DNA from: Streptomyces sp. P9-A4 | GTDB lineage: Bacteria; Actinomycetota; Actinomycetes; Streptomycetales; Streptomycetaceae | Assembly: GCF_036634195.1 (NCBI RefSeq) | Contig: NZ_JAZIFY010000001.1 | Location: 62,001-126,000, forward strand | Reading direction: 5' to 3' | Length of the DNA stretch: 64,000 bases | Shown: piece after piece, positions 47,965 to 50,142 of the stretch | How positions within the stretch are numbered: the first letter of the stretch is position 1 | Layout of the letters: every line of letters starts with the position of its first letter | Translations under genes and position numbers: made by a program | The notes under the pieces: model-generated | What the model saw: the letters and a program-made list of their open reading frames with translations, nothing else | What the model was told of the DNA's origin: nothing | Databases searched by the model: none

Positions 47965-48534
47965 TCAGGCGGCGAAGCCGAGGTTGCTCACGTACTCGTA
48001 CTTGCCCCAGTCGGACCCGAGATCGGCGATCTGGTCGATCCAGGCGTCGTCGAGGGCGCGCTCGTCCCCGGCGACCCAGGCGGCCACGATCCGGTCCCAC
48101 TGACGGATGTTCAGCGTCCTGAAGCCAAGGACCCGCTGGTGCGGCTGGGCCACCTGGGACTGGTTGAGGGGATGCAACTCGACGCGCGTACCGCCTCGGG
48201 AGTTCAGCCGGGCGAGGAGGTAGCGCGCGACGTTGAGCCGGCGCACCGACCAGTAGGCGACGTCGATCCGGTCGAGATTGGCCCGGTTGGGCCGGCGCTC
48301 CTCGGCGAGCCAGGCCCTGAGCGTGCGGTCGCTCGCTCTGAGCCCGGCCTCCTTCGCCTGCCGCAGCGCGTGCGGGGACCTGTTCAGGTAGTGCAGCCGG
48401 GCGAGGAGACCGCGTCGGCTGGTCACCGGTGAGGCGATGCCCTCGACGAGCCGGTCGAGCTGACGCGCGGCCGCCTCGCTGCCCTTGATGCCACGGGCAC
48501 CGTAGTGGCCGAAGTCATGGGTGTACTCGGGCAC
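47965..48534 (-). CDS. Tpg-like (telomere terminal-protein-like) second gene of a two-gene operon
   Basis: A 189-residue protein. About 42-95 resemble the helix-turn-helix of Streptomyces terminal protein Tpg: LLARLHYLNRSPHALRQAKE then ASDRTLRAWLAEERRPNRAN, LDRIDVAYW. Tpg has a comparable R-T-V-x-x-Y/W...K/R-x-P-R...L motif at the same place, and its length (about 185) is the same. The rest (SDWGKYEYVSNLGFAA end) is not recognised. Its GTG follows the Tap-like stop directly (TGAGTG), matching tap-tpg order. If homologous, it could be a DNA-linked priming protein or a regulator. This is inference, not a firm call. Confidence 0.5.
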   Translation of the reverse strand: MPEYTHDFGHYGARGIKGSEAAARQLDRLVEGIASPVTSRRGLLARLHYLNRSPHALRQAKEAGLRASDRTLRAWLAEERRPNRANLDRIDVAYWSVRRLNVARYLLARLNSRGGTRVELHPLNQSQVAQPHQRVLGFRTLNIRQWDRIVAAWVAGDERALDDAWIDQIADLGSDWGKYEYVSNLGFAA

Positions 48535-50142
48535 TCAGCCCTCCTCCTGCGCCGTGTAGACGTCCTTGACCTTCACTTCGGACACGCCCCGGCCCTCGGG
48601 GAAGACCCGCCGCCAGTCGCCGATGACGTGCAGCTCGTCGGTGCCCATCGCGCGGACGACGGTCAGCCCGCCCTCGTACGCCTTGTAGGCCTTTGTCCAG
48701 AGATTGGCGAAGGCCTGGGAGCGGATGATGTGCATCCAGTCGGGTCGGTACAGCTCCCGGTTGAAGTTCGACTCCCCCATGGTGGCGACGAACTTGGAGT
48801 ACATCGCCTTCACGTACTCCAGTGTGACCTCGTCCTCGGAAACGAGCGCGGCGGCCCGGGCGTCACGGAGCGTGTTGCGGAACTTCTCCAGAAGGTTCTC
48901 GGTGGCCCCGGAGGTGAAGGACTCGTGGACGACGGGCGGTTCGCACAGCCCGTACGCGGGCGAGGACAGCCGCAGGAGGAGTCGGAGGGTCGGCTCGGTG
49001 ATCCAGAGCGGGCCCGGTTCGTCGCGGGACCCGAGCGGGTTGGGGAGGTGTTCGCCGTGCTGCCAGTCGGGCGGGGTGACGAGATGGACCCCGGCCCGCC
49101 GCCGGTCGTGCACGCCGCCCGTGTGGTGTTCGAGGGCGCCGAGCGGCAGATGCGTCTTGAGGGCGCTGAGATAGGCGCCGTTGATGTCGAGGGCCGTGAT
49201 CTCCTGCGGTCCGGCCGGCAGCGCCGGACGCGTCCACTTGGGCCGCGCCTCCCAGACCTCGTCGGCTCCCCGGGAGGTCTTCTTCCGCAGAATGCCGGGC
49301 AGCGGAGGGTGCCCGACGATCTCGTAGCGGGCCCCCGTGCGGCACATGTCGAGCAACGCCATGGCGTCGGGGATGGCGGTACGCACGAGGTCCGCGGTCG
49401 CCGCCTCGGTGTCACCGCCGTGCCGCACCAGCGCCTCCCGGACGGCCTCCTGCACCGTCCCCAACGGGGTGGGCGCGGGCTCCTGGAAAGCCCGCAGACG
49501 CGCCGCCGAAGCCGCCCGGTCCGCCTTGGGCCGCTCCCGCTCGAAACGCTTGCCCTGCGAACGGGCCCGCTCGGGCCGCTCACGGCCGCCGGGAGGCGAT
49601 GCGGACTCACCGCCTTCACGGTCGCCGGGGGTCTGCGCGGGCTCACCGCCCTCGCGGTCGCGCGGGGTCGGAGCGGCGCCACCGCACTCCGCGGGATCGA
49701 GGTGCTGTGCGAATCCCTCGACCTCATGACGGGCCGGGTGTCCGCACAGGACACACGGTTGAGGTACGGCGAGCTCGTCACCCTCGGCGACCCCGCCCGC
49801 CGGCCCCGTAGCGACCTCCACTGACGGCGACGCCGGAACCGAGAACGGGGTCGGGGACGATGGCGGGGTCGGGTCCGGGGGCGCCGGTTCGTCGGCGGGT
49901 GCGTCGAGCTTGGCGCTGAGGCCGTCGAGCAGGTAGGCGTACCGCGTCCTGGTCTCCCCGGCAGGCTCGCGACCCGCTTCCCAGGCGGCCAGGGTCGTCG
50001 GGCTGACGCCGAGCGCACGGGCCACCTGCGCCTTGGTCAGTCGCGCGGTCTCCCGCAGCCGTACCCGCTCCTCGGGGGCGGGCAGTTCCGCCTCCGGTGC
50101 GACGCCCGCGAGGAGTGCGTCGACCGCGTCGAAGTCCTTCAC
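48535..50142 (-). CDS. Tap-like (telomere-associated-protein-like) HTH protein with polymerase-B-like motifs
   Basis: A 535-residue protein. Residues 26-78 are an XRE-type helix-turn-helix (TARLTKAQVARALGVSPTTL then AAWEAGREP). Residues 78-210 are disordered, with a Cys/His cluster CVLCGHPARHEVEGF then QHLDPAEC (C130, C133, H135/H139, H147, C153) that could bind zinc. The C-terminal part has motif-like sites: ITALDINGAYLSAL (D319, like motif A), VKAMYSKFVATMGES (K445-G456, like motif B) and MGTDELHVIGDW (like motif C). Tap has the same plan and about 700 residues. Motif C is poor, so catalysis is unlikely or altered. Upstream gap of 104 bases holds its promoter. Confidence 0.55.
   Translation of the reverse strand: MKDFDAVDALLAGVAPEAELPAPEERVRLRETARLTKAQVARALGVSPTTLAAWEAGREPAGETRTRYAYLLDGLSAKLDAPADEPAPPDPTPPSSPTPFSVPASPSVEVATGPAGGVAEGDELAVPQPCVLCGHPARHEVEGFAQHLDPAECGGAAPTPRDREGGEPAQTPGDREGGESASPPGGRERPERARSQGKRFERERPKADRAASAARLRAFQEPAPTPLGTVQEAVREALVRHGGDTEAATADLVRTAIPDAMALLDMCRTGARYEIVGHPPLPGILRKKTSRGADEVWEARPKWTRPALPAGPQEITALDINGAYLSALKTHLPLGALEHHTGGVHDRRRAGVHLVTPPDWQHGEHLPNPLGSRDEPGPLWITEPTLRLLLRLSSPAYGLCEPPVVHESFTSGATENLLEKFRNTLRDARAAALVSEDEVTLEYVKAMYSKFVATMGESNFNRELYRPDWMHIIRSQAFANLWTKAYKAYEGGLTVVRAMGTDELHVIGDWRRVFPEGRGVSEVKVKDVYTAQEEG

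Follow-up and report, generated by a model that had tools for sequence, protein, structure and literature searches.

A distant relative of the tap-tpg gene pair as a probable non-archetypal end-patching system for linear replicons in Streptomyces

Two directly adjoining genes of Streptomyces sp. P9-A4, identified as open reading frames in a window of 64,000 nucleotides (bases 62001-126000 of a 6,842,853-base contig), encode a large protein with an N-terminal helix-turn-helix and a small protein (Table 1). The pair had been singled out from the letters of the DNA alone (the original prediction), with correct positions, with the strand unstated, and with the suggestion of a diverged terminal-protein pair at an internal site. 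Neither gene is interrupted, and both show purifying selection, with dN/dS values relative to two relatives of 0.25 and 0.25 for the large gene and 0.15 and 0.14 for the small gene. These values, together with flanking DNA that is also present in both relatives, mark a kept chromosomal locus. The word "internal" is misleading, since the position of the window places the pair about 110 kb in from the end of the contig, a subterminal site. The absence of a tRNA beside the pair was borne out, none being found within the window.

Table 1. Features of the gene pair, in coordinates of the window, and of helicase-linked relatives, in coordinates of their own loci
Feature	Position	Strand	Remark
Tap-like protein, 535 aa	48535..50142	-	GTG start; TGA stop inside coordinates
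Tpg-like terminal protein candidate, 189 aa	47965..48534	-	profile match to archetypal Tpg, P 4.6e-5
Large/small gene junction	48532..48537	-	TGA stop abuts GTG start of small gene
N-terminal helix-turn-helix, residues 28-75	49918..50061	-	Pfam HTH_31, E 9e-8, over its cut-off
Cys/His cluster, residues 130-153 (C130, C133, H147, C153)	49684..49755	-	invariant in 10 close relatives
Motif A-like, residues 316-340, D319	49123..49197	-	best place of motif A profile, z 3.5
Motif B-like, residues 439-456 (VKAMYSKFV)	48775..48828	-	best profile place 439-452, z 3.8
Motif C-like, residues 495-507, D502	48622..48660	-	best place of motif C profile, z 4.8
DnaB-like/Tap-like fusions	L098:3166-6216, L106:1901-5968, L110:911-4798		end-located or plasmid-like copies

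A search across the genome for a second Tap- or Tpg-like copy found none, and the pair is the only one detected; another Tap match at 4.62 Mb was rejected as a helix-turn-helix on an unrelated open reading frame. The outer 3 kb of the assembly's four contig ends have no terminal repeat in common and, by eye, no small-loop hairpin arrays, so the true ends are probably missing from the assembly. A telomere pattern gave three matches in this genome, compared with six in the control, and none at an end, while a ttrA fragment used as query gave no match in this genome, which says nothing either way. Contig C2 of the assembly (L013, G000) has one inverted repeat at its start, in the first ~45 bases.

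The large protein matches the NCBIfam model telomere_Tap (NF047542) with an E value of 4.4e-23, best over residues 4-109, but at 81.9 bits it fails the 600-bit cut-off of this archetypal Tap equivalog. The small protein has no match among the family models, with none in NCBIfam at E<=10, including the Tpg model NF047541, which gives a control Tpg 293.6 bits. To represent the archetypal proteins, 14 Tap and 15 Tpg sequences from 30 loci of the genus were aligned and compared profile against profile with the pair. The N-terminus of the large protein matches that of archetypal Tap with P 3e-17, and its C-terminal half matches Tap with P 1.6e-5 over 176 columns (0.1 for the reversed control), a score reached by none of 200 column shuffles; homology to archetypal Tap thus extends beyond the helix-turn-helix. 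The small protein matches Tpg with a probability of 69% over 96 columns. These profile matches, a comparison that the original prediction had proposed, show the two proteins to be distantly related to Tap and Tpg without belonging to the curated families, and family searches did not assign them to an unrelated regulator family.

Pfam finds only the helix-turn-helix, solved structures searched by sequence with both proteins yielded only helix-turn-helix chains, and PHROGs matched the large protein with helix-turn-helix regulators and a few weak others; archetypal Tap searched against solved structures gave helix-turn-helix chains along with weak matches to designed and sigma-factor chains. Among viral contigs there were 12 pattern matches and no relative. 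At E<=0.001, relatives numbered 1795 of 8000 scored candidates for the large protein and 788 of 2479 for the small protein, which together with the dN/dS values shows that the two reading frames did not arise by chance. Among the best 120 of each, database names include "helix-turn-helix protein" and "transcriptional regulator," and many Streptomyces albidoflavus records hold a large protein of the family under the name "acyltransferase." The Cys/His cluster noted in the original prediction is conserved among close relatives (Table 1), although its residues are not invariant in a 133-sequence alignment, and it is a possible zinc site. In the small protein, S126 is invariant in 55 close relatives, with Asp or Thr in some distant ones, and this conservation makes it a candidate priming residue.

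According to the available text of one study (PMC4513846), the terminal protein of the pairs Tap-Tpg and Tac-Tpc receives nucleotides in vitro from its partner with no other polymerase present, and the authors stated in 2015 that a DNA polymerase motif is lacking. Twelve phage protein-primed polymerases supplied profiles for motifs A, B, and C, which were scanned against the C-terminal domain, using the 133-sequence alignment. All three found their best places in the expected order along the large protein (Table 1), at the sites that the original prediction had proposed; because those sites had already been picked by eye, the scan is a confirmation and not a discovery. The motif C aspartate is D502 (GTDELHV), invariant in the alignment, and not D509 as first supposed, which is not invariant. 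Motif C reads GTD in place of DTD, with Gly replacing the first Asp; it is the second Asp of this motif that is the main metal ligand. In the same scan, archetypal Tap had motifs A and B ranked second and motif C outside the top four, so the polymerase motifs of the window protein are clearer than those of archetypal Tap, which has no match to the polymerase profile. An overall alignment of the large protein with the polymerases spans 184-188 columns and takes in all three motifs (the longest of 200 shuffles reached 102 columns), but its score is not significant, being reached by 48 of 200 shuffles. The large protein is likely to be kin to protein-primed family-B polymerases, which is short of proof. 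It resembles those of phi29, PRD1, and their relatives in having motifs A, B, and C in order, and differs from them in its N-terminal helix-turn-helix, shorter length, and GTD for DTD.

Of 393 Streptomyces genomes, 143 carry the small-protein family at E<=1e-20. Among 150 genomes, archetypal Tap scores over its cut-off in 98 and the 189-aa family is present in 64 (E<=1e-4, partial matches counted). By a hand count, the family is found in 40 of the 52 genomes without archetypal Tap, compared with 24 of the 98 with it (odds ratio 10.3; Fisher p 1.1e-9, with p values being optimistic because the genomes are related). Neither the family nor archetypal Tap over cut-off was detected in 12 of the 150 (G001, G012, G024, G069, G073, G087, G089, G110, G120, G121, G123, and G134), for which a different end-patching system, damaged copies, or a circular chromosome may be responsible.

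In many complete chromosomes the small gene sits close to one end or to both. Its copies are equidistant from the two ends in G065 (605 bp), G129 (2550), G049 (3098), G109 (10.7 kb), and G068 (13.7 kb), and equidistant from both chromosome ends also in G204, G336, G151, and G334; further copies lie deeper inside some genomes. Contigs C1 and C2 of G334 carry truncated small-gene copies at the very ends, at bases 33-557 and in mirror copies. The small gene is present in 17 of 18 end or subterminal loci that were read, with a clear Tap-like neighbour in 13 of the 17; no clear Tap-like gene lies alongside it in three (G015, G104, and G010), and at the G052 locus the Tap-like open reading frame has only 273 aa. 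For the subfamily of the window, all copies among the matches listed are within 5% of an end in 15 of 17 single-contig genomes, where chance would give 10%; the exceptions are at 8% and 50%. This count covers single-contig genomes with nearly full-length matches of at least 60% identity, several lengths being rounded, and so leaves out multi-contig genomes and lower or partial matches such as that of G079. The family is common on plasmids. There, the subfamily of the window shows no enrichment towards the ends (KS p 0.13, for 60 listed of 165 records). For a G065-like variant, 13 of 16 cases (the first 16 of 60 listed, from 148 records) lie no more than 10 kb from an end.

Sg2247-type telomeres are arrays of GGA-, GTA-, and GAA-loop hairpins. 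The ends examined were at first the left ones in 36 genomes and the right ones in 12, followed by 20 left ends from 19 family-carrying genomes, a second batch chosen for the family and therefore holding no family-free genomes; many assemblies stop short of the telomeres. A left end was called Sg2247-type if blastn found it similar (E<=1e-3) to an end published as Sg2247-type or, in the case of G065, to an S. albidoflavus plasmid end. By this measure, nine of 33 genomes with the family (G015, G051, G065, G109, G129, G158, G182, G204, and G336) and none of 22 without it have Sg2247-type left ends (Fisher p 0.008), the match of G158 being weak (43 bases, 3e-4). Archetypal Tap over cut-off is absent from seven of the nine and present in G129 and G182. 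The clearest case is G051, which carries the subfamily of the window: its end is 81% similar over 185 bases to that of pSCAT, both of its ends are alike, the pair lies 17.2 kb from the other end, and archetypal Tap is absent. G151, G364, and G190 have the family yet show GCA- or CTTG-loop ends, and all three have archetypal Tap. Both ends of G052 (L158 and L159) stand apart from the others, with arrays of hairpins whose loops are GCCA and GTCA, and possibly represent another telomere class. Both replicons compared from the Sg2247 list in the accessible text of PMC8743542, pSCAT and pSGZL, encode the family. In two linear S. albidoflavus plasmids (L115, NZ_CP109086.1, and L116, NZ_CP108380.1) the small gene is ~0.7 kb from both ends; their large protein is named "acyltransferase" in one and a helix-turn-helix protein in the other. 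Adjacent genes with the partner first, a terminal location, and cognate hairpin telomeres are all found at the level of the family, the telomere of the window's own genome not being seen.

Of five large proteins scanned, three carry a DnaB-like helicase domain on the N-terminal side of the Tap-like one (E 4e-23, 5e-20, and 2e-16; Table 1), and in plasmid pRLB1-9.2 (L036, NZ_CP041652.2, 75.1-78.7 kb) a dnaB gene is just upstream of the family pair. Strand opening may therefore be coupled to priming in some members. The accessible text of PMC7205883 describes a further non-archetypal pair, GtpB-GtpA of S. griseus IFO13350 (Suzuki et al. 2008), in which GtpA is only 18% identical to Tpg and which accompanies GGA-loop telomeres in a Streptomyces population.

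The window pair could be GtpB-GtpA in another species, with the same function and new only in its distribution, a reading to which we give somewhat less than even weight. The GGA-loop telomeres and the low identity to Tpg are both like the family of the window, a likeness drawn from the description in that paper and not from sequence. Against it, the same text finds no Tap/Tpg homologue on the linear plasmid pRLB1-9.1 with GtpA/GtpB queries at a 50% identity cut-off, and this plasmid appears to be the pair-carrying pRLB1-9.2. That the pair is a degenerate or spare one, a relic of plasmid or telomere exchange unused for the ends of this genome, is improbable. Its distance of ~110 kb from the contig end, the frequency of the family on plasmids, and telomere exchange, which is known in the genus (PMC7205883, available text), would fit a relic; however, an intact pair with dN/dS of 0.14-0.25 that is the only one found in the genome argues otherwise, as does the location of archetypal tap-tpg, which is likewise in terminal regions and not at the very end (PMC4513846, available text). 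The suggestion of an old integrated element is not supported.

Least probable, and in our view very unlikely, is a transcription-regulator pair unrelated to telomeres. The database names and the limitation of Pfam matches to the helix-turn-helix speak for such a role, while homology to Tap that reaches into the C-terminal half, along with the family's terminal position and its association with a telomere type, speaks against it. A telomere-independent role, which the original prediction had also entertained, is disfavoured, and its alternative of a diverged terminal-protein pair is the one that the data favour.

The best explanation, which we hold with considerable confidence, is that the two proteins form a non-archetypal machine that patches the ends of linear replicons, one being a terminal protein and the other its Tap-type telomere polymerase partner. 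This view rests on the profile matches to Tap and Tpg, the terminal location seen across the family, its complementarity with archetypal Tap and its association with Sg2247-type telomeres, and the conservation of motifs A, B, and C. The small protein would be the terminal protein that primes synthesis and stays covalently attached to the 5' end, while the helix-turn-helix end of the large protein would bind hairpins of the single-stranded 3' overhang and hold the terminal protein, and its C-terminal domain, as family-B polymerase kin, would add the first nucleotides. The cognate ends would be Sg2247-type telomeres, presumably including this genome's own ends, which are absent from the assembly.

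The pair is like archetypal Tap-Tpg in gene order, helix-turn-helix, profile homology of both proteins, and terminal location, and the small protein is similar in size to Tpg (189 aa compared with ~185 aa); it differs in that Tap has ~700-740 aa compared with 535 aa, and in that Tap-Tpg serves archetypal telomeres while the family of the window goes with the Sg2247 type. Tac-Tpc of plasmid SCP1 is likewise a two-gene system of a terminal protein and a partner, and it primes synthesis in vitro (PMC4513846, available text); the SCP1 telomeres are of another class, and this likeness to the window pair is one of description and not of sequence. We judge it to be a real non-archetypal telomere pair, which would work like tap-tpg yet is outside the curated families.

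A 2021 survey, in the text available, called the enzymes of the Sg2247 telomere type elusive. How the linear chromosome of J1074 is maintained without tap-tpg has been stated as an open question (PMC3937824), and the accessible text of PMC8743542 raises it for S. rimosus, S. albidoflavus J1074, and S. griseus 13350. No published report filling this gap was found in a search whose scope excluded most subscription papers and all preprints. We regard it as an even chance that this family supplies the end-patching system so far missing for Sg2247-type telomeres and that Tap-type enzymes are reduced forms of protein-primed family-B polymerases carrying a DNA-binding head, some end-located copies being fused to a DnaB-like helicase. 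The polymerase motifs, if real, would explain the source of the polymerase activity of Tap. The family, hidden behind annotations like "transcriptional regulator" or "acyltransferase," is a concrete and testable candidate for the upkeep of linear chromosomes in Streptomyces that lack tap-tpg.
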